Source: Parietichytrium sp. I65-24A (taxonomy: Eukaryota > Sar > Bigyra > Thraustochytrida > Thraustochytriidae). From it: a DNA stretch of 64,000 bases. Within the stretch, counting starts at the first letter, position 1. Each line of letters begins with the position of its first letter. The stretch is taken from positions 124,001 to 188,000 of the forward strand of contig BLSF01000001.1 of assembly GCA_012862575.1 (NCBI GenBank). The letters run 5' to 3'. A program made the translations under genes and the position numbers. Of this stretch, positions 13,456 to 37,841 are shown one piece after another. The notes below the pieces were generated by a model. The model searched no databases. It saw nothing but the letters and a program-made list of their open reading frames with translations, and was not told where the DNA came from.

Positions 13456-14028
13456 AGCTCGCGAATTGCGGAATTGATTCCTTCAATGTTTCACTGTCTG
13501 TTTTAAATACAAACCAAACTTTGCCTTGCTTTTGTTTCCAGCAAACCATTTTTGTTTGTTTGTTTGTTCGTTTGTGTGTTTTTATTTAGCTTTTCTGGAC
13601 CTCTCGATACATGCTTGGAAATAACTTTCACAAATCGAAAACTGTTCCAGATCTATAGAACGGGACTGGGAGAGCGCATGAGGGAGAGCGTTTTAAGACC
13701 GCAGTTGACGACTTGCTTCTCAAGCTGCGAGCAACACAAGATGCACATTGCGACTTCGACACATCCAGAAGGGACTGGAACGACTACTAGTGCTCGCATA
13801 GCGAGCAAACCATCTCGTGACAAATGCTGAATGCTGAATGTGACGGTGATCCATCCCGATTCAGAACATCAGGTCGAAACCAAGCAAGCAAAGAAAGAGG
13901 ACAAAGGAAATGAGGTATTTGAGGTGGCGAGTCCTGAACAGCCAAATCTAGACGACGGCTGCGGCTCTATTCAAAATAAATTGTATTGTCGTTTCCCAAT
14001 TAGTAAAGAGAAAGAAAAGGTGGACAAC
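13456..14028. other. Convergent 3' spacer
   Basis: This 573-base spacer separates the 3' ends of the RRM (+) and SAH hydrolase (-) genes. It contains a GTTT repeat (about 13551-13580) and AT-rich sequence that probably carries both polyadenylation regions. The long plus-strand frame that enters from here is only the antisense of the hydrolase gene. Confidence 0.6.
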
Positions 14029-15477
14029 TTAGTAGCGGTAAGTTGCAGACTTGAATGGTCCATCAACGTTGACAGAGATGTACTTAGCCTGCTCGTCAGA
14101 GAGCTTGGTGAGCTTAGCACCGAGCTTGTCGAGGTGAAGGCGAGCGACCATCTCGTCGAGCTCCTTTGGAAGCACGTACACCTTGCCGCGAGCGTACTTG
14201 CCAGATTCGCGCTCGCGCCAGAGCTCGATCTGAGCAAGGGTCTGGTTGGTGAAACTGTTGCTCATCACAAAAGATGGGTGGCCAGTGGCACATCCAAGGT
14301 TCACAAGGCGGCCCTCAGCGAGGATGATAACTCCGTGGTTGGTTCCTGGGAACACGAAGCGGTCGACCTGTGGCTTGATGTTGATGCGCTGGCACTTGTC
14401 GTAGACGGTAGCCATGTCGATCTCGTTGTCAAAATGTCCAATGTTACAGACGATAGCGTTGTTCTTCATCTTGGCCATGTGCTCGTAGTTGACAATTCCC
14501 TTGTTTCCGGTAGCGGTCACAATGATGTCAATCTCGCCGATCACATCCTCGACGGTGGTCACAAAGAGACCCTCCATAGCAGCCTGAAGAGCACAGATAG
14601 GGTCGATTTCAGATACGTACACAATGGCGCCAGCAGCCTTGAGAGCCTTGGCGCAACCCTTGCCGACATCTCCGAATCCGCACACCATGGTCTTCTTTCC
14701 TGCAAGCATAACATCGGTAGCGCGCATGATACCGTCAGGAAGGGAGTGCTGGCATCCGTAGAGGTTGTCGAACTTGGACTTGGTCACACTGTCGTTAACG
14801 TTGATAGCAGGGAACAAGAGCTTGCCCTCCTTCTCCATCTGGTAAAGGCGGTGCACACCAGTGGTGGTCTCCTCGCTCACTCCAACAATGCGAGGGACAA
14901 TCTTGTGCCAGCGCTGTGGGTCGCGCTCGAGCTCGCGCTTGAGGATCTTGAGGACAACCTTGAACTCAGCGTTGGTGGTGGACTCTGGGTCTGGGAGAGT
15001 TCCGTCAGCAGCGTAGCGGTTCTCAGCCTCGTATCCCTCGATGATGAGGAGGGTCATGTCACCACCATCATCAACGATCACATCTGGGCCGTTGCCTTTT
15101 CCATCGTCCTCTGGCCAGGTGAGCGCAGCCAGCGTGCACTCCCAGTACTCATCGAGGGTCTCTCCCTTCCACGCGTACACTGCGGCCGTTCCCTTGGTTG
15201 CCACTGCAGCTGCGGCGTGGTCCTGGGTGGAGAAGATGTTGCACGAGCACCAGCGCACGTCAGATCCGAGAGCGTTCAAGGTCTCGATCAAAACTGCGGT
15301 CTGGATGGTCATGTGCAGGGATCCTGCAATGCGCGATCCAGCCAAGGTCTTGCCGTACTTCTTGCGGCACTCGACGAGACCTGGCATCTCAACCTCGGCC
15401 AACTCGATTTCCTTGCGACCAAAGTCAGCAAGCGCCTCCTCGGCGATCTTGTATGGGAGTCCTGCGTACTCTGCCAT
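14029..15477 (-). CDS. SAHH: S-adenosylhomocysteine hydrolase
   Basis: Predicted 482-residue NAD-dependent hydrolase that splits S-adenosylhomocysteine into homocysteine and adenosine and so relieves inhibition of methyltransferases in the methionine cycle. Visible signatures are the substrate-domain start [10 protein letters not shown], the Rossmann motif [18 protein letters not shown], and the canonical C-terminus ending in ATYRY. The insert after LTWPEDDG, of about 40 residues, is the one found in plant and many protist enzymes and is absent from animal ones, which explains the length. The frame can be read 15 codons further to a GTG; the ATG at 15477 is chosen since MAEYAG begins the conserved fold. 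Codon use is strongly biased, so the antisense frame is open for over 600 codons. Upstream lies a dense TGACGT cluster. Confidence 0.97.
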
Positions 15478-15678
15478 CTTTCCTGCTTCTTTTCCTTTCT
15501 CTTGCGAATCCTTTACCGACACCTACTTTTCTTCCTGCTCCGCTCCTCTGCGTTTGGTGACTGCTGCTCCAAGATCTTCTCGCCCTTCTTGCCAGCACAT
15601 CACTCCGCCAGAAGCGACCTCCACCCAACCCTGCTTGCGTCTCCTCCCGCTTTGCCTAGTACTCTCTAGCAGTGATGG

Positions 15679-15927
15679 CGTCATCAGCAGATGACGTGCG
15701 CACAGCCACTTGATGGTAAAGCTGACGTAGGCGGGCATGTGACGTAGGATTGGTATGGGGAGAGAGTGGATGGCGTCAGCGGAGGGAAGATTCGCGGTGA
15801 CGTCAGCGAGCGGCACGGCTGGGTGGCGGGGCGGGAGATGACGCGAGCGCAAGGGACCACTCGTGGTGGGGATAAGGATCAGGTATGGAAAACGGTGGGA
15901 GTGGATGTGAGTGGGGCGGAAACGTCA
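15679..15927. promoter_or_regulatory. TGACGT (CRE-like) cluster upstream of SAH hydrolase
   Basis: Five TGACGT cores occur within 240 bases of the gene's upstream side: 15692, 15723, 15740, 15798 (full palindrome TGACGTCA) and reversed at 15922. Partial GCGTCA cores lie at about 15679 and 15774. By chance one core per roughly 2 kb (both strands) is expected. ATF/CREB-type bZIP factors bind this core in other eukaryotes; use by this gene is inference. Confidence 0.55.
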
Positions 15928-17514
15928 TGTCTCGACATCTTGAAATCGGTGCACTGGTCACAAATTGACACCGCAATCAATCAATAAGTATCTTCCTTCT
16001 TCCTCTTTTGCCACGTCCTTTCCGTCCTTTGTTCCGAATCTCACGCTTTCTTTCTCGACGTCTCGAGTCTCTGCCTTCAAGCTTTTCTTTCAATTCACTG
16101 TCAAAAAATGTCAAAAACTGAAGGAAGAAAGGAAGCTGCCCCAAATAGAAAACTCCTTCTGCAAAAGCATGCAAAAGCCCAGAAAGCCAAAGCAGAAATG
16201 GATCCACCCACTGCTATTCAACTTATCATAGATATTATAGTATCCCCGAATTGCAGTGCGCTCCAGCTGGCTATGATGTGAGTGGGTGAGAAACTCCTCA
16301 CTAACCTTTCAACAAGAACATGAACATCATAATTTCGCGCTCACCAAAGACGCCTAAAAGTCCTGAAAAAGCCAAAGATCGGTTCAGACAGAAGGGATCA
16401 ACTCTACTAGTTGTTAGAGAGAGTGATACGGCTCTTGTCTCAAGACGCGAATAGGGTGATGGTAACACTATGATACTGCGAAATGTATCAGGACTAGTGC
16501 CAGTGTGGAGTTGGCGAGAAAGCTTCGATGCGCTTCGATGCACGTAACCGGGACCGACATGTGAGTGAGCGCTCGTGCTCCACCACAAATCCTTTCGAAT
16601 CCTTTCGAAAAGAAAAAAGAGAAAAGAATGTGGTTTAGGCCTTGTACATCCATGAACGCAATGACTTTCAATGACTGGCGCGCGGTTTTCAATTCATTAT
16701 TTCATTTGACTGTGAACAAGATCAGAGCCTGAGGATTGAGAATGATTGAGATCATGGTACTCAGTACTACACTCAGTGCTATGTACTCAGTACCCAGCGC
16801 TGGTACCGGTACTTTACAAGATTCATTGGGAGAAAAAGTGGTACGAGGAGTCACTCTTTGTTAGCGCACACCTCTATTGTTCTCTACTAGCGAAGAAGTT
16901 TGGAAATTAGGACCTTGTAGTACCTTCACTATGCCATCATCCAGCAGGTGGTCAAGGAAGACTCCCTAGATCTTACAAATAGACAGAATAATAATACTCT
17001 AATTGGTGGGGGAATTGAGTAGCAGATGATGGTCCTAGTACTAAGAAATGCGTTTCAAAGTTGGCTTTCGCAGTTTGGAAAGGTTTGGGAACTTTTCATT
17101 TTCACTCTGAAAACAGAAAACACTCTTCTATTCCCGTCCTGTCTATCTATTCTCATGAACTTATTCGGCGATTCGATTTTGACAAGATCTTTTTTAGTGT
17201 CGAGAGAGTCGAGAGTGTCGAGAAAGAGATCTACTGGTTAGGACATTCCATAGTCCCAGCCATCTTCCAGAACCCCGCGCGTGTCACCAAGGAGTCCTTG
17301 TCACACCGAACCTTCTCTTGTTCACGACTTCATTTTGTTCTTTGACCGGTCGAACGTTGTTGCCCAAAGTTTCGGTTCCGCGAGTTGCAATATTTTCCTT
17401 CTTGCGCACAGAGGAGACAGAGGAGAACAACCAAACAAATAGACGCCGACCGGCGCAAATAAATATATATAAAAATATCGTCCACCACCAAGTGTCCTCG
17501 GAGCATGCGACAGA
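15928..17514. other. Upstream spacer of the giant scaffold gene
   Basis: No gene was recognised. The spacer includes a cluster of GTACTCAGTAC-type words (16756-16815) with GGTACCGGTAC, and an AT-rich stretch about 50 bases before the ATG at 17515 that may include the transcription start. Confidence 0.55.
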
Positions 17515-20500
17515 ATGCGCGCGTCGCCGCTCTCCCCTGGCGCTAGACTTTCGCACAGCAACACCACTAGCCCGCGCAAGCGCTCGCGCACGCAAACGCA
17601 AACGGGGACACCACGGAAGCAGGAGGAGGAAGGGGAATTTGGCGATGCACAGCGGGGACAGTACGCGGCCGCGTATACGGAAGACTACTCGGACAGCGAG
17701 TCCCTGTCCCAGCAGCAGGACGGAGATGACCATGATGACCATGATGATGATGATGACAGCGACTCAGATGACGGCGGGGGTCCTCGCAAGGGGTACGCGC
17801 TCGTGAGCGCGGCGTTACATTCGCTGGAGAAGAGCGGGAGAAGGAAGAATCACTCGCCGAGGCTTAGGGCCGGAAGAAAAGAAGTGCGTGGAAAGTTCCG
17901 GGAACAGGCCAAATCCCCGCCGAGGAGACTTCCCGGGCTGCGGTCGGAGACGGAGAGATTGGAGAAATTGGAGAGATTGGAACTGATGACAGAGTTCGAT
18001 CCTCAGGAAGATGCGATTCGGGCGATGCTTTCGCCATCGAGAAGGGGAACGTACCGTAAAGGAAGTCACGCGGCAGTCATAGCGGCTAATTTGAGAGCAA
18101 TCGAGAGCCCGGCCAACAAGCACATGCAAGAGTCCTGGGGGAATAACTTCGCTGCGGAAATGGAGTTTCTTTCTGCGGAGACGACCAGGGAAGAGATTGA
18201 ATCTTCGCATCGAGCGCGCAAGCTGGAGCTGCAGAGGATTATTGGCCACGTGAGAGCGGTGTCCAGGGGCGATCCCGGTCAGCATCAGCATTTGCATCAG
18301 CATCAGCAAATGGACTCTTCGCGCGCAAGCTCCACGCAAGCCCGGCAACGAAGGAAGGTGCCCCAGGTGCCGTTCGGGCACCTTGCCTTTGAGGATCTCA
18401 GTTGGAAGCGCGCAGCCGCCATCGATTTAAGGTTGTGGAGCAACGTGGTGAACGACAATAGTCTGGCAGAGTTTGCGAGCGCTGTCAGGCAATGCAAGTC
18501 ACTTGATCTTCGAGGGTGCGTAGATATTACGGATGCTGGCTTGGAGGTTCTTGCAGAGAGAGCCGTAGCTCTGCAGGTGATTCGACTCGCAGGGTGCTCC
18601 GGCCTTTCCGAAAGTGGCGTCGTCAAATTCTTGGAGATTCGAGGCTCCAATTTACTAGGCCTTGACCTGGACAAATATTACTCGCTTCGCTTGGATACAG
18701 ACAAGTCAGTGGGCTGCGCGTGCTGCACTGCTGCCTCAAATGACGTGTCGGACGATGAATGCAAGAGCGCGGACGCAATCACACTCGATGCTGGCCTAGC
18801 ACTTACTGAGCGGACGACGAGGGCAATTGCTGTCTGTTGTAGGAATTTGCGAGCCATTCACATGAACAAACAAACGAGCGCCTTAGGAAACGAAGCAGCT
18901 GTGTTGCTTGCGAAAAACTGCCGCCAACTTACCCACATTGAATTTTTACACTGCAATCGGCTCGGATCAGAAGCCTTCAAGACACTTGGTGGTTTCAGCT
19001 CATCTACAATACGAGCAGCTCACCTGAGTTTCTGCAATACAGTGACTGACGAGAGTTTAGATCTGCTGTTCGAGCGGTCTGCAGAACTTCGACGTCTTGA
19101 CTTAGCAGGCCTGGACAAAATTACGGACGCAGGAGTTCGCGGATTTCTTGAAAGAAAAGTAATCTGGGGCTTTAAACCCAACGAAGGCCTCGCCCGTCTC
19201 CGGCATTTGGATTTTCAGAGCTGTGGAAAATTAACAGACATTGCCTTGAGCTGGATCGCCTCTGGTTGCCCTGCTCTGCAGTACCTGGATATCAGCAAAT
19301 GCCCGGGAATTCGCGACTACGGGCTGAAAAACATCGGAGGCATGAAGACGCTTAAAATCCTGAAAATGAGTGATTGCCCCCTGATTACTGATGCTGGGAT
19401 GGAAAACCTCGTACATGCAAGGTCCTCCGTTGACCCTTTTGCTCTCGGAAAGCTGCACAAGCTTGTATTAAGCGGTCTCGCGCTGACTCCAGCCGCGCTG
19501 ATCGTTGTGGTCGAAAAGCTAGGGAACCGAAATGGTGGTTCTCTCGCCAACTTGGAAGTGGAAAACAATCCCGCGGTAACCGATTCCGTGTTGCGACTGA
19601 TTGCACATAATATCGGCAACAAACTTCGTTCGCTTCATCTCTCTAGCTCGCTTCAGGTGTCCGCAGCTGGACTCGGCGCACTCGGGCAAAAGTGTAAACA
19701 AATCCGCTCTTTGCGAGTCTCCAATTGCGAAAATCTTGCGGACGACGCATTAAGGTCTATCGAGCAACTCCGCCATGTACAGTTCTTGGACATCTCTCTC
19801 AACGCGTCTTTAACCGATCAAGGGGTTCTCTCCGTTCCGAGCTGGAGGTTGCTATCCCTCAAGCTTAATGCAATCCCGGGTGTCAGCGATGAGGCAATCT
19901 GCGCTGCCGTCGTGCGCTGCCAAGAACTACTCACCCTGGACGTGAGAGAATGTAAAAATCTCACGGACGCCCTGTTTCTTGGATTCATTGACTGTGACTC
20001 TTATCCTCCCAAACTTGACACTATTAACGTCGCTGGGTGCGCCAAAATATCGGATGGGGCCATAGATGGACTTGCGGCGCATCTGCGCGATAATCTGAGC
20101 CTACCGTGCAAATCGTTTCGCAATCACGAGTTTCGCGGCGTCTTGCAGGAACCAACGGGAAGAGCGACTCGACACCAGAGGACTATCAACAATTTGAAGC
20201 TTGCCAGACTCTCGGCCGCGCAGATGATACAGTGCTTCGTGAGGTCCCAGTGGGCGCAGCGGAGGTTCCGAGCCCTCAGGTTCCAATTGCACCAGACTAG
20301 GATGAACGCTGCCGTAAAGATTCAGGCGTTGGGCAGGAAAATGCTTGCGCGCATCTTCTACACGGAAATGCGAAACGTGTGCGAGTTTATTGCGCTTCGT
20401 GTTCAATTTCTGTGGAAGCAGTATCTTGTAAAGAAGCTCTACGCCAAGTCCATCGCTTTTTGGAAAAACCGAACCCTCACGACTGCCTTCTACCAGTGGG

Positions 20501-23500
20501 CGAATAATGCTGTTGCTGAGGCCATGGCGCGCCGGGAGGAAATAGCCAAGCAACAGGCCCTCAAAGCTTTCCAATTCTGGTCACTGCGCACTTTGAAAGG
20601 TACAGTTCAAGTGTGGAAAGACTATGTCGCCCAATGCCGCTGGGAACACGCTCGTTATCCACGCGCTTTGAAATTTTTCTCCGATCGAACGTGTCGCCAA
20701 GCATTCAACTCTTGGTCTGCAAACATCAAGCCGGGTATCGCGAGGCGATCAGCCCTTGTCAAAATTTTTCTCAACTGCTTGCCACTGGAAACAAGAAACG
20801 CGAGCGTGGCCAAGAGCAGCGTCTATGTGGCCAACCGAATGAGCGAGAGGCGCGTCAAGCGAACAGCGTTTCGTGCCTTGTCGGACAACGTACTTGAGTC
20901 TCGCGAGTTTTACCAGCTGGCTTCTCAGTTCCTGCGAGCCCAGTTTTTGGCTTTGCCAGGGCAGCCCGGACGGCCCATGGGCCGAGGGTACGCCATGTTC
21001 GCTGCTTGGAAACTATATACAAACTTCCGAAAGCGGACCAGAGAGAAGGAAGCTGAGTTGCGCAAACTATCTAGAAAGCGGGCGCTGCGGACAGCGTTGT
21101 TACACCTCAGGAGCGACGCGAAACGCATATGTCTCGCAAGAGCTCAAAAACTCGCCGCTGCGAGACTGTTCTCCAATGTCTCTAGTAAGAAGATGCTGAG
21201 TATGTGGAGATCCAATGCTACTTTAGGCCGAATTGAGAGAGAGAAAATGGCCAAAGCGGTCGCTTATATGCGAAATAGAACATTGGCGGGCTTTTTCCGG
21301 CTCTGGCATCGCTCAATTATGCAAAACAAGTCCAATGCTGACAAGGTGAGCAGATCGATTGCGCGACTCAAAAACCGTGTACTCTCCAGGGCTTTTATTG
21401 GCTGGGCTGACTACGCTGAGCGATGTGCGGAGATCAAGAACCGAAGCAAGCACAGAATTGAGATCGGGCTGCTTGGCAAATGTTTCGATACGTGGCAAGA
21501 GTTCCAGCAGGAAAACTCCGCCAAACGACGAAATCAACTTGGGCTTTGGGAGGAGCTGAATCTTCGTATCGTTCCCTTGCAAGCGCTCTGTCGCGGTGTA
21601 CTGGGTCGTACACATGCCGAGGACCACAGACTCATCACCCAACTCATGGCAATCAAGATCCAATCGCAGATTCGAATTATGCTTGCGAAAAAAGAGCTGA
21701 TACGCCAAGAGCGGCGACGAGTTCTCAAAGAGTACGTATTTGCAGAAAAGGCGTTGGATGCGATGGCGGAAGAAGATAAAGATGGCCACGCAATGCGAGC
21801 AGAGTACAACGCGGCTCGAATCGTACAGCTGCATTACCGTGCACGGCAATCGCGGGATTGGTACTACGCAGCCCGGCGGGAGATGAACAAACTTCGAGAG
21901 ATTAAACGTCAAGAGGAGCAAAAGCGGATGGCAGAGGAGCACCAAGTGAAGATGCTGGAGAGACAAGAGGAGAAGGAGAAAACCGACAAGGTGGTGTCCA
22001 AATTTCAGGCTTTGTTTCGGGGCGCCAAAGCTCGTGCAAAATATCATCAAATGTGGATTCACGACTTTGATAATCGCACCGCCGGACTAATTCAGCGAGC
22101 TGTGAGGGCGCGAATCGCGCGCAATAAATGTGACGGTATCCGCCGGTCGCGTTTTATTGTGTTGGAGACGAGGAATCAACAGCGCGCAAACGCTCGCATC
22201 CTTCGCGCAGTGGCTTTGAGGACCAAAGCGCAACAGGATATGGCAATACCTGTGTTAGACTCCATTGGACTTCATCCAGATACCTTCAACTTGGAACTGA
22301 AAAAGTTAAAGAAGGAGGTGAAGGAGGACTTTTTCGCTTGGAACCGGCTTGCACGAAGCCACATCGAGGCTTTCCGGCGTGGAGGCTTCGACGCGGATAA
22401 ACGCGACGAAATCATAAGTGCTTTTTATGAACGTGTACAGGACGAGTCGTGGGTGAAAAAAGGTGACGCGGTGAAAATTGTCTCCAGCCAAAGCCCGTAC
22501 TGTGGGCAGACAGGATACGTTTTGAACGTGCATAAAGTTGGAACAGTGCCTGGCGGGCAGCAGTGCGTTGTGCGACTGGACCGAACTGGCCGGATTGCGT
22601 TTTTACCTGTTATGACATACCCAACAAAGTCAGAGGGATCGAAGAATGCAATGTTGAGAATCGATCGAATGCAGAAAGACTTTGAAGAGTCTAAAGTGAA
22701 ACCTGAGCTCGTTGAACAGAACCGCGAGAACCTCCTGGCTGCTGCCGATGTACTCAGGAAAGAGCACGACGAACGCAGAGCGGCCTTGATGGTACAGCGT
22801 ACCATTCGAGGGATGAATATTCGAGAATACGTCCGCGAGCAATCTGTAAAGCAAAAGGCGATCGACGAGCGGAAACAGCAAAAGCTGCTCAAATTGCTTC
22901 GTGCTCTGCATCTTGACAGCGCACGCACTGGTAGGATCCTCGTGGCTCTCGGATTGGTGTGGCCACGCTATGTTCCAGAAATGCCAGAAAAGCCGTTCGC
23001 GGCGGAGACTTGGTACAAAAAATACCAAATGCAGAAAGAGTTGGACAAATACAAAAAAGAGAAATTTGAAGAAGTGCGAATGGACAGACTCGTGCGGTTA
23101 AAAATGGTGAAAAAGGCCCAGGAAGACCAGGGGCGCGACGATAACTTTTACGGTCACGGGGGTTCTTCGAAAAGCTTGCGTCTTATCTCATCTCGACTCA
23201 AGCATGCTGCGTCAATAGAACCCACAGACCTAATTAAGGACGAACACCAGACCAAGCTGAGGTGGAGGCTCCGCGGGCCAATTAAGGCCACGATGTATCG
23301 CGGGCTAGAGCTTCTCACGAACAAACTTTTGGCACCATGTGCGGATTGGCTCAGCTTGAAGGGAGACAAGGTCCGCGGCAAAGGGACTGACAAGAGTAAA
23401 TTAGTACTGAGCTCTGTCATTGATGTACTGGCCAGCTTAGTTGGTGGACCAGAATGGAGACAGAGTCCTGTTGAGAGGAGTACCTGGGTTGGAGTTCATT

Positions 23501-26500
23501 GCTTCGCACAGCTTTCGGAGAGCGAGCACGGCACGATGCTGGGATATGCTCTATATCACGGGACTTGGGACAAGAAGGGGATACCGCATGGCTTTGGTGT
23601 GCTGGAGTTTGCTCACGGCAACGGCCTTGGAAAAATCCTTGCAAAGTACAGCTCTCTTTTTGAGGATGACGACAAGAGCGCTGGTGGAAGTTCAGTTTCT
23701 TCCAGCGTATTTGCTGCAATTGGTGGCGGTCTTAGGCGATCGTCTACGCTGCATAATCTTCGCAAGCATATGTCAAAGAGCTCTGTTGCCCAGTTTTCAG
23801 AGTTGCAAGATCGTGTGGAGGATGAGGAAGTGGTACTCACCGATACAGAGGACGAAGACGAAGACTCCGGGGCAAACCAAACTAACGTCTCTGATGAGGA
23901 CGCGTTGATTCGAGAGGTGTCCAAGGTTTCTTTGTCGTCACTGGTGGATGAGAATGGTAATTTGGACTACAAACGGCTTCTTAAGCGTCGGCAGTCTTCT
24001 AAGCGTATTGATATGAACACTCTTTCTAAGAATGACGGGTCACTTTCGCACCGAAGCCACAGCAAGGATCAGCTCCCGCAGTATTCGTCGATCGCCGCCA
24101 ACGTCAGTCATGGTCAAATTGAAGGCGACGTGGTGATCAAGTTTGTCGGGGGAGCCGTTTATGAAGGAGGATACGTTGCTGAAGACGCAGTTGGACGCAC
24201 ATTTGCGGAGGAGTCGTCGTCCAAATTCAATCAAGATCTGCCAATTTTTAGCCTTCTCTCCAAGCCGTCAGGGAGGGATGCCCTTGCAAGATCGCGCAGG
24301 AGCGTAGTGGCCATCTCCGAGTCTCGAAACGGGTTTGTTGAAGCCGTGGAAGACGACGACGAAGAGGAGGATAATTTTGCGAGAAGATCCCCTTCGTCGT
24401 CCAACAGCACGCATTTTGGTGTGTGGACGTGCGCAGATGGGACAAGCTATGAAGGGCCAGGAGTAACGAATCACTTCGACGAGAGCGACGTCACGGGGCT
24501 TTTGCGAGTGACCTGGGCAAACGGGGAGTCGTACTTTGGAGATCTTTTGCACGGCAAACGTCACGGTTCTGGCCGGATGGTGATGGCTAATGGGGACGAG
24601 TACAAGGGCGAGTGGTTGGACGATCGCCCAGATGGGCGAGGTTTTCATCTAACTGGCTCCTCTCGCACTGCATATCTCGGTTTCTTTAAGAACGGAGAAC
24701 CTCATGGAAAAGGCAGACAGACTTTTCCAGACGGCGCAAAATATGAAGGTGGATATTTTGAGGGTAGGTTTCACGGAAAGGGGCGCTTGCGGACGGGGGC
24801 AGGCGATACGTTTGAGGGCAGTTTCTTGGTCGGAAAGTATCACGGGTTTGGCAAGATGGTTTATTCGGATGGGGCGACGTACGAGGGCCACTGGCAAGAC
24901 GGGAAGCGCCACACACCGGTTGGAGAAGCGCCATCAATTCTGACAACTCCAGAGGGTCACGTGTACCATGTGCCATTCCTTGACAACGAAATGGACGGTG
25001 CAGGGGTGTTTGTGGAAAAGACCTTAAATTTGTGGAGGCTTGAAAAGCGCGGCCTTTGGAGGCGGGGGCAACTAGTACACTGGATCTCGGTGAACGTCAA
25101 TGAAGGCAGCACCGCAGAATTTTGCGACATGTTCCACAAGTACGCCGACTACAACTCTCCATTCGCTCTATTCGTGGCACAGACGCTTCCCGAGCTACCA
25201 CCAGGAGTAGATCCACATGATCGCCGCGTCGAGCAGCATATCGACGCAATTATTCGTCGTGCTGGTGGGCTTGTGGGCAGCACCATGACGGAAAGATCCA
25301 AGGCAGACCTTGAGCAGTGCAAGCCGCAGCTGGAGGCGATGGTTGTGGCTCATGGCCAGGCCACTGAAGATCTGGCAACGGCCGAAAAAGAGTTTGCAGA
25401 CGCGAAAACAAGGCTGTCGTTTGCACGGCAACGGGCAGAAGGGCTTGAAAAGGAGTGCGAAAGGCTGCAGAAGGAGGTGAAAGACTTTTGGAAGGAGAAC
25501 AAAGAGGCGCGCAAGAAGAAGAGAGCCTTCAAAAGATCTCTGCATCGCCTTCGACAAGCAGAGTACTCGGAATGGTTTGCCTGTAAAATGGCGACCCTCA
25601 CTCCTTTTTTGTGGGACTCACTTTGGCGCGGGCTGAGTAAAATGCTATTGGTAGAATTGGATGACCGCGCCATCTCCCCCAAAGATATTGAAAAGCTCTG
25701 TAACAGTGCAGAGACCAATGCCCGTCTGGGCGAGCCGAACGCGCTTCTTCGCAATTACAAGGTAAAGTTCCTTGACGATGTGGACCATCTCAATGTGTAC
25801 GAGCGCTCCAAAAACGAAAAGATGATGGACATGGTGAGCAATATTGTTTATAATCGTGACATGAAGCCGAACAACATAGAGCTGGTGCAGGTCTGCCCTC
25901 TTGCGGCGCCCTTAATCCTATTTTTGCGCTCTTGCTTTGAGTACTTGAAGGCAGCTCAGGAAATATCCAGGACCGTCGATTCGCTCAAGGATACGAAGAA
26001 ACTCTCAAATCATTCCCGCGAGGTACTCGTCGAGGAAGCAGAAAAAGTACTGGCTCGGGAGCTTGCAGTTCAGGAGGCAGAAAAAGCCAAATTGGGTGCA
26101 TTTTATGATCTGGAGGCTATGAAAGCCAGGTTGCAAAAGTTGGAAACCAATCATGAGCGCGCGGTGGAAATTAGCCTTCGCGCTATCGAGCTTGCCAAGA
26201 TGAGCCCTGAAGCTGTTTTGATGCACCGGTTCACGGACAAGTTGGAGCGCGACGAAGACGACATTGTTCCGTGGTTGAGTCGAGAAGACGAGTACATCCG
26301 GAACCAGTGCCGGGCTTGCATTAATGATATGCTGGCTCTCCTCTGCGGAATTGAGCCTGAGGTGTGGGATACTGTGTGGACCCTGAAGGAGCTTGTTGTC
26401 GCGCAACACAACTACGAGGTTCGCTACGGGAAGCTGGAAAATGACCCTGAATACATTTACCCAGAAGTTCGAGACGCCGTGGGAGCGATGGTGAACATAA

Positions 26501-27474
26501 CTGCTGGGTTTCCTCTGGCAGAACTGCAGGTGAAAGATTGTCTCGACGATGTGATGTTTCGCGTCGAAGGCCCAGGAAAGGAAATGCTGGATTTTATGGA
26601 TAGTTTGTTAGACCGTGCGGAAGCATTGTACCGATTTGAGGAGCGCGCTCGGCTTCGGGACGAGATGTTTGCTGGAAAGAGGGTCGCTGTAAGGCTCGAG
26701 GGAGAAGATTCAAGGCGGCGTTTCGGGGTCTGCTTGAGGACGTTTGATTATAAGAAGCCCATATTCGCGCCGGTTGAGCCAGGGACCGGAGTCATATTCT
26801 GTGACGACTCGGTGGATGTCTTTGGGTACGAGGACTCCACTGCTTTTTCGACGGAGCTTAAAGTCGGAGACTTGCTGTGCTTACCGGACTTGTCTCGAGA
26901 CACGGTCATTCAGCGCACGATCGTCCAAATCTTGTACGATTTTCAGCTGCAGCTCGACTCGCCGTTTGACTACCATGTATTGACGGGCGACTGGACCAAG
27001 AACTGGGGCTTTCAGCAACCAGACAAGGTGATCGAGTATCAGGAATGTCAGATGATTGACGTGAGGTACGATAACAACGAAGAGGAGACGTACGTCATGC
27101 TTGATAGGGTGGAGCTGGCATTAGAAGACGACGAGCTGGTTCCCAACAGAAAGCCAATGCAACCACCCGGCCAACCTTCCAAGTCCAAAGCTCCGGGGTC
27201 TGCGAGATCGACAGTATCCATTAGCAGCGATGACAGCGACGACTCTGCCGCAGAGAACTCCACCTTCAAGTCTCGCGCGCAGATCTGGGAGGAGTTTCTG
27301 GACAAGAGCACGGACCGACCATATTATCACAACGTTGAGACAGGACTCACAACCTGGGATCAGCCCGTCCTTGACAAATTCTCGTGGTTTCAGTTCGAGG
27401 ACGATAGTACCGGCTACCTGTACTGGTTCAATCCGGTGCGCAACGTGACGACATGGAGGCATCCAAAGAGGTGA
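17515..27474 (+). CDS. Giant LRR-IQ-Sfi1-MORN-WW cytoskeletal scaffold
   Basis: Single uninterrupted frame of 3,319 residues. Order by eye: acidic/basic disordered N-terminus (1-290, with Asp and Gln-His runs); cysteine-type leucine-rich repeats like AMN1/F-box LRR proteins (about 300-865, units such as LDISKCPGIRDYGL); IQ motifs (about 885-975); Sfi1-like helical repeats with RTLxxAFxxW cores (about 980-1340); further IQ motifs (about 1350-1545 and 1750-1775); a KOW/SH3-like segment with GDAVKIV (about 1646-1700); MORN repeats with GxGxxxxxxGxxYxG (single units near 2005 and 2300, main block 2332-2470); a coiled coil with a dynein-stalk-like globule (about 2590-2900); two C-terminal WW domains (3260-3319). 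IQ and Sfi1 repeats bind calmodulin and centrin, so a role at basal bodies, flagellar roots or centrosome-like structures is inferred. No enzyme domain is seen. Confidence 0.85.
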   Translation: MRASPLSPGARLSHSNTTSPRKRSRTQTQTGTPRKQEEEGEFGDAQRGQYAAAYTEDYSDSESLSQQQDGDDHDDHDDDDDSDSDDGGGPRKGYALVSAALHSLEKSGRRKNHSPRLRAGRKEVRGKFREQAKSPPRRLPGLRSETERLEKLERLELMTEFDPQEDAIRAMLSPSRRGTYRKGSHAAVIAANLRAIESPANKHMQESWGNNFAAEMEFLSAETTREEIESSHRARKLELQRIIGHVRAVSRGDPGQHQHLHQHQQMDSSRASSTQARQRRKVPQVPFGHLAFEDLSWKRAAAIDLRLWSNVVNDNSLAEFASAVRQCKSLDLRGCVDITDAGLEVLAERAVALQVIRLAGCSGLSESGVVKFLEIRGSNLLGLDLDKYYSLRLDTDKSVGCACCTAASNDVSDDECKSADAITLDAGLALTERTTRAIAVCCRNLRAIHMNKQTSALGNEAAVLLAKNCRQLTHIEFLHCNRLGSEAFKTLGGFSSSTIRAAHLSFCNTVTDESLDLLFERSAELRRLDLAGLDKITDAGVRGFLERKVIWGFKPNEGLARLRHLDFQSCGKLTDIALSWIASGCPALQYLDISKCPGIRDYGLKNIGGMKTLKILKMSDCPLITDAGMENLVHARSSVDPFALGKLHKLVLSGLALTPAALIVVVEKLGNRNGGSLANLEVENNPAVTDSVLRLIAHNIGNKLRSLHLSSSLQVSAAGLGALGQKCKQIRSLRVSNCENLADDALRSIEQLRHVQFLDISLNASLTDQGVLSVPSWRLLSLKLNAIPGVSDEAICAAVVRCQELLTLDVRECKNLTDALFLGFIDCDSYPPKLDTINVAGCAKISDGAIDGLAAHLRDNLSLPCKSFRNHEFRGVLQEPTGRATRHQRTINNLKLARLSAAQMIQCFVRSQWAQRRFRALRFQLHQTRMNAAVKIQALGRKMLARIFYTEMRNVCEFIALRVQFLWKQYLVKKLYAKSIAFWKNRTLTTAFYQWANNAVAEAMARREEIAKQQALKAFQFWSLRTLKGTVQVWKDYVAQCRWEHARYPRALKFFSDRTCRQAFNSWSANIKPGIARRSALVKIFLNCLPLETRNASVAKSSVYVANRMSERRVKRTAFRALSDNVLESREFYQLASQFLRAQFLALPGQPGRPMGRGYAMFAAWKLYTNFRKRTREKEAELRKLSRKRALRTALLHLRSDAKRICLARAQKLAAARLFSNVSSKKMLSMWRSNATLGRIEREKMAKAVAYMRNRTLAGFFRLWHRSIMQNKSNADKVSRSIARLKNRVLSRAFIGWADYAERCAEIKNRSKHRIEIGLLGKCFDTWQEFQQENSAKRRNQLGLWEELNLRIVPLQALCRGVLGRTHAEDHRLITQLMAIKIQSQIRIMLAKKELIRQERRRVLKEYVFAEKALDAMAEEDKDGHAMRAEYNAARIVQLHYRARQSRDWYYAARREMNKLREIKRQEEQKRMAEEHQVKMLERQEEKEKTDKVVSKFQALFRGAKARAKYHQMWIHDFDNRTAGLIQRAVRARIARNKCDGIRRSRFIVLETRNQQRANARILRAVALRTKAQQDMAIPVLDSIGLHPDTFNLELKKLKKEVKEDFFAWNRLARSHIEAFRRGGFDADKRDEIISAFYERVQDESWVKKGDAVKIVSSQSPYCGQTGYVLNVHKVGTVPGGQQCVVRLDRTGRIAFLPVMTYPTKSEGSKNAMLRIDRMQKDFEESKVKPELVEQNRENLLAAADVLRKEHDERRAALMVQRTIRGMNIREYVREQSVKQKAIDERKQQKLLKLLRALHLDSARTGRILVALGLVWPRYVPEMPEKPFAAETWYKKYQMQKELDKYKKEKFEEVRMDRLVRLKMVKKAQEDQGRDDNFYGHGGSSKSLRLISSRLKHAASIEPTDLIKDEHQTKLRWRLRGPIKATMYRGLELLTNKLLAPCADWLSLKGDKVRGKGTDKSKLVLSSVIDVLASLVGGPEWRQSPVERSTWVGVHCFAQLSESEHGTMLGYALYHGTWDKKGIPHGFGVLEFAHGNGLGKILAKYSSLFEDDDKSAGGSSVSSSVFAAIGGGLRRSSTLHNLRKHMSKSSVAQFSELQDRVEDEEVVLTDTEDEDEDSGANQTNVSDEDALIREVSKVSLSSLVDENGNLDYKRLLKRRQSSKRIDMNTLSKNDGSLSHRSHSKDQLPQYSSIAANVSHGQIEGDVVIKFVGGAVYEGGYVAEDAVGRTFAEESSSKFNQDLPIFSLLSKPSGRDALARSRRSVVAISESRNGFVEAVEDDDEEEDNFARRSPSSSNSTHFGVWTCADGTSYEGPGVTNHFDESDVTGLLRVTWANGESYFGDLLHGKRHGSGRMVMANGDEYKGEWLDDRPDGRGFHLTGSSRTAYLGFFKNGEPHGKGRQTFPDGAKYEGGYFEGRFHGKGRLRTGAGDTFEGSFLVGKYHGFGKMVYSDGATYEGHWQDGKRHTPVGEAPSILTTPEGHVYHVPFLDNEMDGAGVFVEKTLNLWRLEKRGLWRRGQLVHWISVNVNEGSTAEFCDMFHKYADYNSPFALFVAQTLPELPPGVDPHDRRVEQHIDAIIRRAGGLVGSTMTERSKADLEQCKPQLEAMVVAHGQATEDLATAEKEFADAKTRLSFARQRAEGLEKECERLQKEVKDFWKENKEARKKKRAFKRSLHRLRQAEYSEWFACKMATLTPFLWDSLWRGLSKMLLVELDDRAISPKDIEKLCNSAETNARLGEPNALLRNYKVKFLDDVDHLNVYERSKNEKMMDMVSNIVYNRDMKPNNIELVQVCPLAAPLILFLRSCFEYLKAAQEISRTVDSLKDTKKLSNHSREVLVEEAEKVLARELAVQEAEKAKLGAFYDLEAMKARLQKLETNHERAVEISLRAIELAKMSPEAVLMHRFTDKLERDEDDIVPWLSREDEYIRNQCRACINDMLALLCGIEPEVWDTVWTLKELVVAQHNYEVRYGKLENDPEYIYPEVRDAVGAMVNITAGFPLAELQVKDCLDDVMFRVEGPGKEMLDFMDSLLDRAEALYRFEERARLRDEMFAGKRVAVRLEGEDSRRRFGVCLRTFDYKKPIFAPVEPGTGVIFCDDSVDVFGYEDSTAFSTELKVGDLLCLPDLSRDTVIQRTIVQILYDFQLQLDSPFDYHVLTGDWTKNWGFQQPDKVIEYQECQMIDVRYDNNEEETYVMLDRVELALEDDELVPNRKPMQPPGQPSKSKAPGSARSTVSISSDDSDDSAAENSTFKSRAQIWEEFLDKSTDRPYYHNVETGLTTWDQPVLDKFSWFQFEDDSTGYLYWFNPVRNVTTWRHPKR

Positions 27475-29952
27475 ATCTTTCTAAATTCTAACCTTCCACT
27501 CATGCTGTAGATTATTAGTAAATGGAGAAGCAACTCTCGACTAGTGGTCAATCTTCCCGGATCCATTGGCTCTCACTGTCGGTATCAGGCCCGCACAGTC
27601 AGTACCTTCTTCAAAGACAGTCCACTGATGTCCACTGCGAAGATCTCCTGAACTGGAATTCCTCCCTCTTCGACCTTTCCTCTTTCCGAAGTTCTCTACG
27701 GCGATGAACCTAACGTCGCTGTTCCTGCCTGTTTTCTACTAGTAACTTCATTCATGTTTTGTTCAGTGTTCAGATTTCAGATTTCAGATGTCAGATGAGC
27801 TTGACTCGCGACCGACCGTGAGCGCGTTGACTACTGCTGAGCTGAGCGACAGCATCACTGCAGTCCAAAGGTCGTCCAGCGGAGCGCTTGCTTCTTATGT
27901 TCTTGAGGTTTCGTTTATTTCGTTTTTACCCTTTACCCTTCCATATCCATACTGACCGTGAGCACACATAAGCTTTAGCGCATGGCACACACTCTCCTTC
28001 TTTCTTTCCTTCTTTCTTTCGGATACGTAGTTTCCTTATGTCTCAACTCGTCTCTCGTGAGACAACTAGACTTACATACGGCGCGAATAGCGCGACGCCT
28101 GTCGACGCACGCTCGGAGCGCGGTAGCGCTCAGCTACTTGTGCGCGTAGCAGCGGCCTCGATCGCCAGCATGCACGATGCTTTCGCCAACAGTGAGCCAT
28201 CCTGGCGATTCCTTCCACCGCAGCTGTAGAAGCTTGTGAGTTGTCGAGCTCGTTGTACTATCGTCGCACTGCACTAACTGCACTGCTCCTTTTCATCCTT
28301 TCCCCGCTGGACGTGTTGTGTTGTCCACGAGACCTGGGGATAGCAGAGAGAGAGAGAGCACGAGCTCTTCGGGAGCCAAGCATGTGCATAAGCTAAACCT
28401 CCGCAAGCTGGAAACTCCTTTGCATCATCCATCCATCTGCCCGCACGTCATTCATCAGTACTGAATACCGTGAGCGAGCAGCTCGCTGCGACGCACGATT
28501 CCAGCAGCTCCCGCTCGCCGACCGTCTGCTGTGCGTGCATTGAGCTTGAATTGAAAACTTTGGAGCAAATTGACCAACAGACAGTTTGACAAGACGGGTT
28601 CGTTTTGTTGTTTGTCTGTCTGGTACCCTCGTGAGGCCGTCGTCGGCCACGTACAGTTTATCTTATTCTCTCTCTCTTGAACATGAGAATGATGATGAAA
28701 AATAAGAAAACACCTAAATGTCTTTGTCTTGCTCGCTTTGGTGTTGGTCTTGTGGCTCATGCTTGTAGAATTTAAAATTGATTTGAGATTGATCGAAAGA
28801 GAGGCAAGGAATGGAAACGCAAAGCACACATAAATGACTCTCGCGCACTCTTTGATCTGACTTTTGACTCAGAAAGGGAGAAGCTCACTGCCTGTGAATT
28901 ACTAAACTATTACTTCGAAAGTTTCGCATGTTTTAGCCAAGAAAAAAAGCACAGCAAAACAACTCATGTGTATTTTGTTTTGTGTATCCCAACACACATC
29001 TCGCGGTGACGAGCCAGCCCAGTCAATCTTTCTTAGTATCTTTCAACTTGTCAACATTTCAACAATTTCAACAATTGACGTAGAAATCAAGTTCCCATCT
29101 AAAGTTACTGCACCACATTGCATGACCCAACAACAGCTGAAAGTAAATTACATGAATTATGAAATGTGAAAGCTCTCTCTTCTACGTTGAGTGTACGTGC
29201 TAGTGTACCGGTACCATCGATCCCTACGAGGTTCATGCGCCAATCTGCGTGTGACCTACCTCCATCCGAGCGCTCTGCTATTCATCCGTGATACATCATG
29301 ATACATCCTGAAATGAGAAATTGAGAATTGAGAATTGAGAGAGGCTATTCACAGTCAATGAGCAACGCGAAACGAGAGAATAATAATGCTAAAGGCCAAT
29401 GCTTTGGAAAGTATATGTGATGAGAGTAGTACAAAAGTTGAACCAGCCAGACGAGCAGAATGTTCTCCGAGATAAACGGGATGGTAGCTCGCGCTAACTG
29501 CAGCACGTGGCTGGCTGGCACTTTTGCACTTGGGGGAGGGAGAGCCTGAGAGGGAGTAAAGGGAAAGAAAGAAAGAAAGAAAGAAAGAAAGAGTTGTTGA
29601 CCTTCATTCACTCACTCACTGCCTCAGGCTCACCACTCACTTGCTCAAAGTCAACTTCGATGGTTCAGAACGGAAGACGGAGCAGAAGAAAGAGGTTTCA
29701 CTCTCAGTGTTCAAGTTCAATGGAAAAAAAGACTTCCAATCTTGCAAGTGTTTATTCGATTCTGTTTCTCAGAGGTTGATTAGCTAGTCTAACGTGCGAA
29801 TACAGGAGGCCAAGAGGAACGTAGAGCACTCAGGCCGTGTGCTACATTACATGCACGGCCCTCCCCGCAGGATTGGAGCAGACCATGCCTTGACTCCATT
29901 GTGCAGCAGACAGACCCGAAATTGGTCGTGGGCACGAGACTCGAAAGCAAAG
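27475..29952. other. Spacer upstream of ammonium transporter
   Basis: This 2.5 kb stretch has no recognised gene. It contains degenerate TTTCAGA repeats (27762-27796), CTTT repeats (about 27995-28020), GAGAATT repeats (29310-29340) and a GAAA microsatellite (29562-29593). Near its right end CTAAC followed by ATACAG (about 29789-29805) looks like a branch point and 3' splice site of a leader intron; no convincing donor was found. Confidence 0.5.
29562..29593. repeat. GAAA tetranucleotide microsatellite
   Basis: About eight GAAA units in the presumed leader or promoter of the ammonium transporter gene. Confidence 0.9.
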
Positions 29953-31443
29953 ATGGTGTTGAATTGCACGCAAATCACCGACGCAGACCTGGCGGTCTTG
30001 TGCGAAGAGCTGGCCGTCGCAAAGGCGAGCTGGGAGGAGTCGCTCGCCGCTCAGACCATTGAGACAGTCGGTTTTAAAAATGACTCGGACACATTCTTCA
30101 TCTTGTGGGCCGGTTCGCTGGTGTTTTTCATGCACTGCGGGTTTGCGATGCTCAGCGCAGGAGCGGTGCGTGTGAAAAACACAAAGAATATTCTCATGTG
30201 CATTCTGCTCGACGCATGCATGTGCGCAATTGCATTTTGGTTTCTCGGCTACGGATTTGCATACGGCGACGACGCTGGGGGCTTCATTGGAACCTCTGGA
30301 TTCGTGGGAATGAGCATGAGCGATCCTGGAAGCTACCAATCGTTCTTCTTCCAGTTCGCGTTCGCAGCCACAGCCGCGACCATCGTCTCTGGAGCAGTTG
30401 CCGAGCGAGCTTCTTTCGAAGCTTACCTCAGTTACTCGTTCTTCTTGTCCATCTGGGTATACCCTGTCGTCGTGCACTGGGTGTGGGGAGGTGGCTGGCT
30501 CACCTCTGGGCCTGACTCGCTCTTTGGCGTTGGCGCCATCGACTTTGCGGGAGACGGCCCTGTACACATGATTGGTGGTGTCGCTGGAGCCATTGGGTCC
30601 AAGATTATCGGCCCGCGAATTGGAAGGTTTGATTCTGATGGCAAGCCCCATCCTATTCAAGGGCACTCCTCTCCTCTGGCGTTTCTTGGTACCTTTATCC
30701 TCTGGGTGGGATGGTTCGGTTTTAATTCCGGTTCTGCTCTGGCCATCATCGGAAGCGGCTTGGTCGCAGAACGCGCGGCAGTGAACACCCTCATGTCTTC
30801 CTCCACCGGCGCGCTTGCGTCTCTCTTTTTTCACTACTTTTGGATGCGACAAGGATGGGATATCAATGCCGCCTTGAACGGAACCCTTGCCGGCCTCGTT
30901 GCGATCACCGCGGGCTGTGCCGTCGTGGAAACCTGGGGAGCACTCATCATCGGGTTGATTGGTGGAATTCTTTACGTTCTTGGTTCTGTTTTCACCATCA
31001 ATGTTCTTAAAATCGACGACCCATTGGACGCAACTCCAGTGCACTTGTTCACTGGAATGTATGGCCTGATCGCAGTTGGATTCTTCGCCAAGACCGAGTT
31101 TGTGGAGGAGTACAATGCCGGCTTCCTTGAAGGCGGCGACCCGAAAGACTATAGCGGAGTCTTCTATGCAGGGAACGGTCACCTGCTCGCAGCGCAAATT
31201 ATCGAGATTCTTGTCATCCTTGCATGGGTCGGGGCTTTCATCACCCCTTACTTTTACATACTGAAACGCCTGGGCGTTCTGCGCATCAGCGCTGAGGCCG
31301 AGAGCGCTGGCATCGATGAGTCTTCTCACGGTGGTACTGCCTACCCAGAGATGTACACAGAGGAGGGCAGTCCAAAACTGGCGCAGAACAACGGTCCTGG
31401 GGGTCCTGTAAACGGGAGCAATAAAGAGGTCAACCGAGTTTAA
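29953..31443 (+). CDS. AMT1: AMT-type ammonium transporter
   Basis: Predicted 496-residue plasma-membrane ammonium channel/transporter with about eleven hydrophobic spans. Recognised by AMLSAGAVRVKN, the signature DFAGDGPVHMIGG, GWFGFNSGS, and LDATPVHLFTGMYG. The two pore histidines of the Amt/Rh fold lie in GPVHM and TPVHL and are both present, so transport should be possible. The cytosolic tail is short and Gly/Asn-rich. The protein would take up ammonium for growth; it resembles plant and algal AMT1 more than bacterial AmtB (by eye). The frame is open upstream to a GTG and includes an in-frame ATG at 29851, but the segment before MVLNCTQ is unlike the family, so the ATG at 29953 is preferred. 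A branch-point plus acceptor about 150 bases upstream suggests a leader intron. The 3' end faces an ankyrin gene 264 bases away. Confidence 0.95.
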   Translation: MVLNCTQITDADLAVLCEELAVAKASWEESLAAQTIETVGFKNDSDTFFILWAGSLVFFMHCGFAMLSAGAVRVKNTKNILMCILLDACMCAIAFWFLGYGFAYGDDAGGFIGTSGFVGMSMSDPGSYQSFFFQFAFAATAATIVSGAVAERASFEAYLSYSFFLSIWVYPVVVHWVWGGGWLTSGPDSLFGVGAIDFAGDGPVHMIGGVAGAIGSKIIGPRIGRFDSDGKPHPIQGHSSPLAFLGTFILWVGWFGFNSGSALAIIGSGLVAERAAVNTLMSSSTGALASLFFHYFWMRQGWDINAALNGTLAGLVAITAGCAVVETWGALIIGLIGGILYVLGSVFTINVLKIDDPLDATPVHLFTGMYGLIAVGFFAKTEFVEEYNAGFLEGGDPKDYSGVFYAGNGHLLAAQIIEILVILAWVGAFITPYFYILKRLGVLRISAEAESAGIDESSHGGTAYPEMYTEEGSPKLAQNNGPGGPVNGSNKEVNRV

Positions 31444-31707
31444 GGATGCCATCGGACAACCTTGACAGAGAGCGATGCTGTCTTTCGTGCACTTTTTTGA
31501 TATCATATATGTATGGACATTCATTCACCCTAATTATTTGAACGTTTTTGTCAATATATTTATTCTTCTGAGTCCTGAATTAATTATTCTGGTTGTGGGA
31601 TTGCGCGCAAGATTGGCGATGCCCCTTTTTTTTCTTTCAAAGTAACCACTCAAGGAAATGAGGCTTGTTTTCAAATTTCGTTCGTAGCGTACACAGATTG
31701 TATTTAC

Positions 31708-36661: not shown

Positions 36662-36677
36662 GGCGGGTGGCTCTTAG

Positions 36678-37145
36678 TCACGGGAAGACGGACTGCGGCA
36701 ACAAAAAGAAGATGCTGCTCATCGCTTGCCAGACAGAACTGTGTCCGTTGACAGGACACGGAAAGTTGTAGTCTGCGTACAAACCTGTGGGGTTGGTTGT
36801 TGCAGAGGTTTCTCGATTAGAACCGGACAACACCTTTAATAGTGCAGGGCACTGAATTCTCCTTCCGTGGTGGACCTGTCTTTCTTGTTCATGCGCCAGC
36901 ACCAAAGGGCGAATGCAGTCCTCGTCATTCTCACGTCCTCGCATGTAGCCAGGATTTGTCCCAAGAAGAGATCGAACTAACCCCCTCTCTTTGACTAGCT
37001 CAACGCCGAGCGTCTTGACCCTGTTCTGGCATTCGTCCGTTAGTGCATACCCGGCCAGAGCATCAACAGTTTTGAGCTCCACGCAGTTCAAACAAATCGT
37101 CAAATTCTTAGACGAGAGAACCAAGGAGTCGCATGCAGTGAACAT
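36678..37145 (-). CDS. Hypothetical open frame, doubtful
   Basis: A 155-codon frame from the ATG at 37145 with ordinary amino-acid composition and several cysteines; it was not recognised. Its stop lies only 16 bases before the ATG of the membrane protein on the same strand, and its end overlaps an acceptor-like sequence. It may therefore be leader or intron sequence, or a remnant, rather than a gene. No domain, signal peptide or membrane segment is evident. Confidence 0.2.
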   Translation of the reverse strand: MFTACDSLVLSSKNLTICLNCVELKTVDALAGYALTDECQNRVKTLGVELVKERGLVRSLLGTNPGYMRGRENDEDCIRPLVLAHEQERQVHHGRRIQCPALLKVLSGSNRETSATTNPTGLYADYNFPCPVNGHSSVWQAMSSIFFLLPQSVFP

Positions 37146-37841
37146 GAAATCCACCCTCTACTGTGTGTTCCGTCCGTGACAACTTTTGCAAGTTTTTCCG
37201 TGTCTGGGATCCACGAGCTTGGAACCAAGTTAATCATTTTACACTCATCCCGTTTCCTTTGTAACGTTCTGTTCCCACAATTGAGAACAGAATAACAAAC
37301 CCCACCCTTGCTTTTGTATCAGAGCAGCTTTAATGGGTCGCTTTGCCGATTTCTGAATTCTGATATCGTAATGCGAAGCGCAGTTGGTACTGTAATGCCA
37401 AAAATCACCGGACACAAGGTCCGTCCGCGCGCCTTACTTGATGGCGTCTACAGCCAATCATCGAAATCGACCAAACGTATCCTGACGGATACATCCAACA
37501 CATTTGCATCACTTTGCATCTGCTCAGATACAACTTCAAGTTAAGTGTGCACCCCACTTTACCACAAACACCAGGAGTCCTTATCGCGTTGGATTGAAAT
37601 CGGAGCCCTCGAGCGTTTTACGAGGGGTTTATTTGAACAACTTGGTCGAGAAAAGCGTGAGGTAAACTTTCAAAAATTCGACGAGTGTGAAAGTGTTTGG
37701 AAGGAAGAGCACAGCCTTAGTTGTTGCGCGAAAGAGAGTCGTGGAAGGACGGGGAGCACGCTGAGGAGGAAGCAGGCGAACGCGGCCAAGGAGAGATCAT
37801 TCGCTCTCGTTGTATTGCAGAATCAATAGAAAACGGGGGCG

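Follow-up and report, generated by a model that had tools for sequence, protein, structure and literature searches.

IQ motifs and Sfi1 helices are docking sites for calmodulin and centrin, and two animal centriole proteins, CEP97 (LRRs and IQ motifs) and CEP164 (WW), use some of the modules of the protein described below. Sfi1 repeats are characterised by a 33-aa periodicity, the motif Ax7LLx3F/Lx2WK/R and centrin binding, and 13 Sfi1-repeat proteins are reported from Tetrahymena, one of which, Sfr1, is found at all cortical-row and oral basal bodies (PMC5112337). MORN repeats have been described as dimerisation and oligomerisation modules, with MORN1 of Trypanosoma, Toxoplasma and Plasmodium having been studied structurally (PMC7725318). 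In T. brucei, the hook complex at the base of the flagellum includes MORN1 and the LRR protein LRRP1 and lies beside the centrin arm (PMC4695855). Among the stramenopiles, a list of oomycete flagellar genes has been published (PMC3471859).

We report here on a gene found in a 64-kb window of Parietichytrium sp. I65-24A DNA (the window being the whole stretch that was analysed), the predicted product of which brings together modules of these systems. Its likeness to the trypanosome hook complex and centrin arm is that MORN repeats, LRRs and centrin meet at the flagellum base there, as separate proteins (PMC4695855), whereas the MORN, LRR and putative centrin-binding parts belong to one chain here; we take this to be an analogy of parts rather than homology of the whole.

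Results

A single reading frame of 3,319 codons

The gene consists of an ATG-to-stop ORF at 17515..27474 on the + strand, comprising 3,319 codons plus the stop. Over the same interval, stops number 124 and 153 in the two other forward frames and 64, 89 and 107 in the reverse ones; the 64-kb window is devoid of N. Coding potential was scored in 22 blocks of 150 codons covering aa 1-3300, using codon log-odds derived from four further ORFs in the window. In every block the 3,319-aa frame scored positive and outranked both other forward frames, and in 17 it also surpassed the highest-scoring reverse frame; the five blocks in which a reverse frame outscored it correspond to aa 451-600 and to four consecutive blocks spanning aa 751-1350. 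Near the MORN repeats, two inserts of low complexity yielded codon scores of 0.30 (aa 2045-2200) and 0.29 (aa 2225-2300) and thus score as coding as the rest of the frame, so that retained introns look unlikely. The ORF call, the stops in the five other frames and the codon score together bear out the single unbroken 10-kb frame proposed in an earlier note on this DNA.

The gene stands alone between its flanks: no further ATG-started ORF of at least 80 aa was found in 15600-17600, and the single additional one in 27400-29900 is of 101 aa and lies on the minus strand. The 1,000 bases upstream were searched for INR-like, FPR-like and CTYAAC patterns. TCAYTYY (INR-like) was matched four times, twice in overlap, with the closest match at -185, and neither of the other patterns had a match. 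As many as four INR-like matches arose in 3 of 1,000 single-base shuffles, a rarity that may reflect clustered pyrimidines, since shuffling of this sort breaks up the clusters. In P. infestans, INR is reported, with or without FPR, for a minority of genes, and it is also mentioned for a non-oomycete stramenopile (PMC3599244); taken by themselves, the upstream matches would be in keeping with an oomycete.

From the N-terminus to the C-terminus, the protein comprises an acidic N-terminus, LRRs, a first IQ group, Sfi1-like helices, a second IQ group, a possible KOW-like patch, a single IQ motif, an outlying MORN-like repeat, an insert, the main MORN block, a coiled coil, a stretch devoid of recognised domains and two WW domains.

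Leucine-rich repeats and IQ motifs

The first 300 residues are acidic and of low complexity, and no Pfam domain reached its cut-off in aa 1-300. They are followed by LRRs of the cysteine-containing (F-box/LRR) type (18472..20109, +; aa ~320-865), the limits of which were drawn by eye and by pattern, with LRR-like pattern starts ranging from aa 353 to 834. Cysteine-type LRRs had been claimed for this region, and whole-protein Pfam scans agree, returning LRR_4 at 36.5 bits (cut-off 27) and LRR_6 at 34.4 bits (cut-off 23.4). When the piece aa 290-880 was compared to PDB chains, FBXL2 and FBXL17 were matched with E values of 4e-24 and 2e-14, respectively, both of them repeat-summed and with no individual stretch passing by itself at 1e-8.

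The presence of IQ motifs likewise holds, on the strength of Pfam in one piece of the protein and of pattern counts above those of shuffled sequences. The Pfam IQ family scored 19.3 bits on the whole protein, just under the cut-off of 20.3, and 30.3 bits against the same cut-off on the piece aa 880-1400, in three stretches of which the output places only the best, at aa 1379-1395 within the second group. A simple IQ pattern matched eight times in the whole protein versus a mean of 0.85 and a maximum of 4 in 200 shuffles. The first IQ group (20212..20439, +; aa ~900-975) was delineated by pattern only, with starts at 936 and 963, and is not significant alone since aa 880-1350 contains two matches versus a shuffle mean of 0.27 and maximum of 3. 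The interval aa 1345-1780, in contrast, contains six matches versus a mean of 0.30 and a maximum of 3 in 1,000 shuffles. It covers the second IQ group (21562..22134, +; aa ~1350-1540), which rests on Pfam and on pattern starts at 1355, 1382, 1437, 1497 and 1526, and a single IQ motif found by pattern (22774..22839, +; aa ~1754-1775), for which Pfam IQ returned an E value of 0.24 in its piece, below cut-off. Between the two lies a possible KOW-like small module (22450..22623, +; aa ~1646-1703), with a marginal Pfam KOW7_SPT5 match (E 0.076, below cut-off) and no PDB match.

Centrin-binding-repeat-like helices

The helices described in the earlier note as Sfi1-like map to 20449..21522 on the + strand (aa 979-1336). 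While the strict motif Ax7LLx3[FL]x2W[KR] has no match in the 3,319 residues, a relaxed pattern, chosen after the sequence had been inspected, matches seven times, every time within aa 979-1336. Shuffling aa 880-1350 1,000 times yielded 0.06 such matches on average and never more than 2; 200 whole-protein shuffles gave 0.26 on average, again with at most 2. The tryptophans of the seven units, out of 14 in the stretch, are located at aa 995, 1034, 1067, 1231, 1264, 1297 and 1327; their spacings of 39, 33, 164, 33, 33 and 30 indicate an array interrupted mid-way. The sequence RTLxxAFxxW, by which the repeats had been characterised, is matched literally once, at aa 986, with near-variants at 1025, 1058, 1255 and 1288.

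Each repeat was next dropped in turn from a home-made profile built on the others, with 20 shuffled proteins serving as controls. Repeats 979, 1018 and 1281 were recovered at 6 to 13 bits, scores that no shuffled protein attained; repeats 1051 (0.3 bits) and 1248 (-0.0 bits) were marginal, the latter being outscored by a shuffled sequence, and repeats 1215 and 1311 were not recovered. Pfam, which includes an Sfi1 model, reported no Sfi1 family for the whole protein or the scanned pieces, and a phmmer search of PDB chains with the repeat region, run at E up to 10, found no match. A single-sequence structure model of aa 890-1410 consisted of helices and no strands, at low confidence (mean pLDDT 42.5). 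The claim of Sfi1-like helices thus stands as far as the relaxed motif, the partly regular spacing and the partial leave-one-out profile go, and finds no backing in Pfam or in phmmer searches of PDB chains. We therefore refer to aa 979-1336 as centrin-binding-repeat-like: repeats of this general type are supported, whereas membership of the Sfi1 class is unproven.

In common with Sfi1 and Tetrahymena Sfr1, the region displays helical-looking units resembling A-x7-(hydrophobic pair)-x3-F-x2-W, several of them about 33 residues apart. It differs from them in the lack of a Pfam match and of the strict motif and in the break within the array, and the protein additionally possesses LRR, MORN and WW modules.

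MORN repeats

The MORN block announced in the earlier note was readily retrieved by Pfam, with 52.7 bits for the whole protein versus a cut-off of 22.5, in three stretches. The main block (24526..24924, +; aa ~2338-2470) was located by Pfam and by PDB MORN1 chains, the E values against MORN1 going down to 3.8e-24. The best four of the 27 PDB matches were MORN1; FAP266, FAP207, radial-spoke head 1 and other proteins of the axoneme came next. Each of the 27 had its best stretch either at aa 492-632, among the LRRs, or at aa 2309-2503, among the MORN repeats. T. brucei MORN1 differs from the present protein in being made solely of MORN repeats (PMC7725318).

Further upstream, an outlying MORN-like repeat (23536..23622, +; aa ~2008-2036) gave a Pfam MORN E value of 0.0036, below cut-off. 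Its score with a home-made MORN profile was 2.5 bits, whereas none of 20 shuffles exceeded -3.7. After it comes an insert of low complexity (aa ~2045-2200). A weak Pfam match to Acetyltransf_1 at aa ~1995-2044 was read as spurious because it is below cut-off and overlaps the outlying repeat.

Probable coiled coil, C-terminal part and WW domains

The region at 25231..26196 on the + strand (aa ~2573-2894) looks like a long coiled coil, with two long helices, the first of them coiled-coil, on either side of a helical middle. Its coiled-coil Pfam matches were all sub-threshold, and a low-confidence single-sequence model of aa ~2,590-2,900 (mean pLDDT 48.6) showed a 100-residue helix, the helical middle and a 63-residue helix, with no strands.

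By eye, the end of aa 2,590-2,900 recalls the last helix of the microtubule-binding domain of dynein and the beginning of the second helix in its stalk. Sequence comparisons with dynein did not support this likeness, which is retained as no more than a lead. No dynein family was reported by Pfam and no PDB match was found at E up to 10 for this segment. A profile of four dynein stalks found its best domain in the whole protein at -0.4 bits, versus up to 5.7 in 300 controls (200 segment shuffles, the reversed segment and 99 shuffles of aa 1381-1900), and no real sequence was present among the best 25 rows. In 16 pairwise comparisons of four regions, two of them controls, with four dyneins (100 shuffles each), the best z was 2.25, for the candidate region against cytoplasmic dynein, where a shuffle scored higher; a control region reached 1.71.

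No recognised domain was found by any scan, Pfam included, in aa ~2895-3250 (26197..27264, +). The protein ends with the two WW domains that had been noted from the frame's translation, the Pfam WW family scoring 41.1 bits for the whole protein versus a cut-off of 26.9, in two stretches. The first domain (27286..27366, +; aa 3258-3284) was placed by Pfam, and the second (27382..27468, +; aa ~3290-3318), at the very C-terminus, corresponds to the second Pfam stretch and was placed by motif.

Other genes of the window

Besides the protein itself, 10 of 15 ORFs of the window were scanned with Pfam; the transposase, PH-PP2C, hydrogenase-like and myosin genes described below point to a eukaryote. 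A piggyBac-type transposase is encoded at 37842-40238 (+) (DDE_Tnp_1_7, E 2e-42); of three pairs of inverted repeats in 36600-42000, none was convincing as transposon ends. The ORF at 5112-7823 (-) joins a PH domain and a PP2C phosphatase in a single frame, and that at 58994-60745 (-) encodes an FeFe-hydrogenase-like protein with large- and small-subunit domains, which could be of the ordinary Nar1/NARFL type. Long antisense ORFs overlap in two pairs, 13831-15669 (+) with 14029-15477 (-) and 29842-31524 (-) with 29851-31443 (+); the members starting at 13831 (+) and 29842 (-) had no Pfam match at E up to 0.01. Finally, a 1,932-aa frame at 48704-54502 (+) shows myosin motor, IQ, TPR-like, SH3 and weak PH matches and had no relative in a search of the viral and prokaryotic collections. 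Its unusual tail agrees with the diverse domain combinations reported for stramenopile myosins (PMC3942036).

Discussion

The reading that we favor, and to which we give even chances, is that of a giant structural scaffold, responsive to calcium, in a part of the cytoskeleton built on centrin, for example a basal body, a flagellar root or the associated cortex. Counting for it are the single frame with its coding signal, the eight IQ and seven relaxed Sfi1 patterns, in excess of shuffled sequences, the Pfam matches to LRR, IQ, MORN and WW families, the ranking of MORN1 and then axonemal proteins among the PDB matches, and the precedents of the Tetrahymena Sfi1-repeat proteins (PMC5112337) and of MORN1 and LRRP1 in T. 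brucei (PMC4695855). Counting against it are the lack of Sfi1 matches in Pfam and of phmmer matches in the PDB for the repeat region, the missing strict motif, the choice of the relaxed pattern after inspection of the sequence, the break in the array and the four repeats that the leave-one-out profile recovered marginally or not at all. Since IQ and Sfi1 helices dock calmodulin and centrin, the middle third of the protein is most readily seen as an extended, helix-rich rod that bears calcium sensors. From this we infer the following assembly, ligands, location and response to calcium. Calmodulin and centrin would load a long rod made up of the IQ and Sfi1-like helices, and calcium might stiffen or shorten it. 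Chains would be paired or polymerised through the MORN block, the coiled coil would act as a spacer or aid dimerisation, and partners would be recruited at opposite ends by the LRR fan (N-terminal) and the two WW domains (C-terminal).

The role assigned here to the MORN block departs from that of a membrane dock, which had been proposed for it. T. brucei MORN1 is reported not to bind to membranes or lipid vesicles, although it did interact with individual phospholipids (PMC7725318). Together with the description of MORN repeats as dimerisation and oligomerisation modules, this leads us to prefer pairing or lattice formation, with membrane docking as the less likely function.

Several other explanations of the locus have to be weighed. 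That two or more genes are being read as one, or that the frame is an assembly artefact, might be suspected from its great length and from the five blocks of 22 won by a reverse frame; yet the frame is stop-free, positive and the best forward frame in every block, the reverse frames are interrupted by 64 to 107 stops and the window is without N, which brings this possibility close to negligible. The closest PDB chains to the LRR block being FBXL2 and FBXL17, the protein might alternatively serve a ubiquitin ligase as a receptor of the F-box/LRR type to which further modules have been added. Pfam revealed no F-box, however, whether in the whole protein, in aa 1-300 or in aa 290-900, and a scaffold of 3,319 aa would be unusual as a substrate receptor, making such a function extremely improbable.

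The two remaining alternatives retain a scaffold and place it elsewhere. Proteins unrelated to flagella commonly possess LRR, IQ and WW modules, and IQ, MORN and WW modules occur in cortical proteins too, so that the protein might be a calmodulin-responsive scaffold of the cell cortex or of membrane contacts with no relation to flagella. Junctophilins do match the MORN block, although the three of them rank 23, 25 and 26 of the 27 PDB matches; the long insert between MORN repeats is reminiscent of junctophilin-2 (140 aa), and individual phospholipids do interact with MORN1 (PMC7725318). Against this, the Sfi1-like repeats indicate centrin more than calmodulin alone, and we hold a purely cortical scaffold to be unlikely, if far from negligible. 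A component of the axoneme itself, associated with radial spokes or doublets, is suggested by the several axonemal MORN proteins among the 27 PDB matches (RSPH1, FAP266, FAP207, FAP227, RSP10 and MORN3). The top four matches are to the non-axonemal MORN1, however, MORN matching is generic, and the best stretches of all 27 are confined to the LRR or MORN blocks, leaving an axonemal function decidedly unlikely.

A bolder version of the centrin-based scaffold may be envisaged, wherein one chain fuses the roles of trypanosome MORN1, of the LRR protein and of the centrin-binding components at the flagellum base with a far-diverged, dynein-stalk-like microtubule contact, formed by the long helical hairpin at aa ~2,590-2,900. 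We consider it very improbable; were it true, one protein would tie together a centrin rod, a MORN lattice and microtubules.

Scans with the whole protein or its pieces confirmed no relative in viral, phage, plasmid, bacterial or archaeal contigs. Because the collections searched represent viruses, bacteria and archaea, this result says nothing about protists and is that expected for a eukaryotic gene. In the open literature, no protein with LRR, IQ, Sfi1-like, MORN and WW modules together was present among the matches listed. The kind of protein, a modular cytoskeletal scaffold, is already known; the particular order of its modules may be new, and similar gene models probably exist unnamed in sequenced protists. 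If the protein is indeed a scaffold loaded with centrin and calmodulin, this one gene would provide a direct handle on how the calcium-responsive fibres of a protist are linked to other parts of its skeleton.
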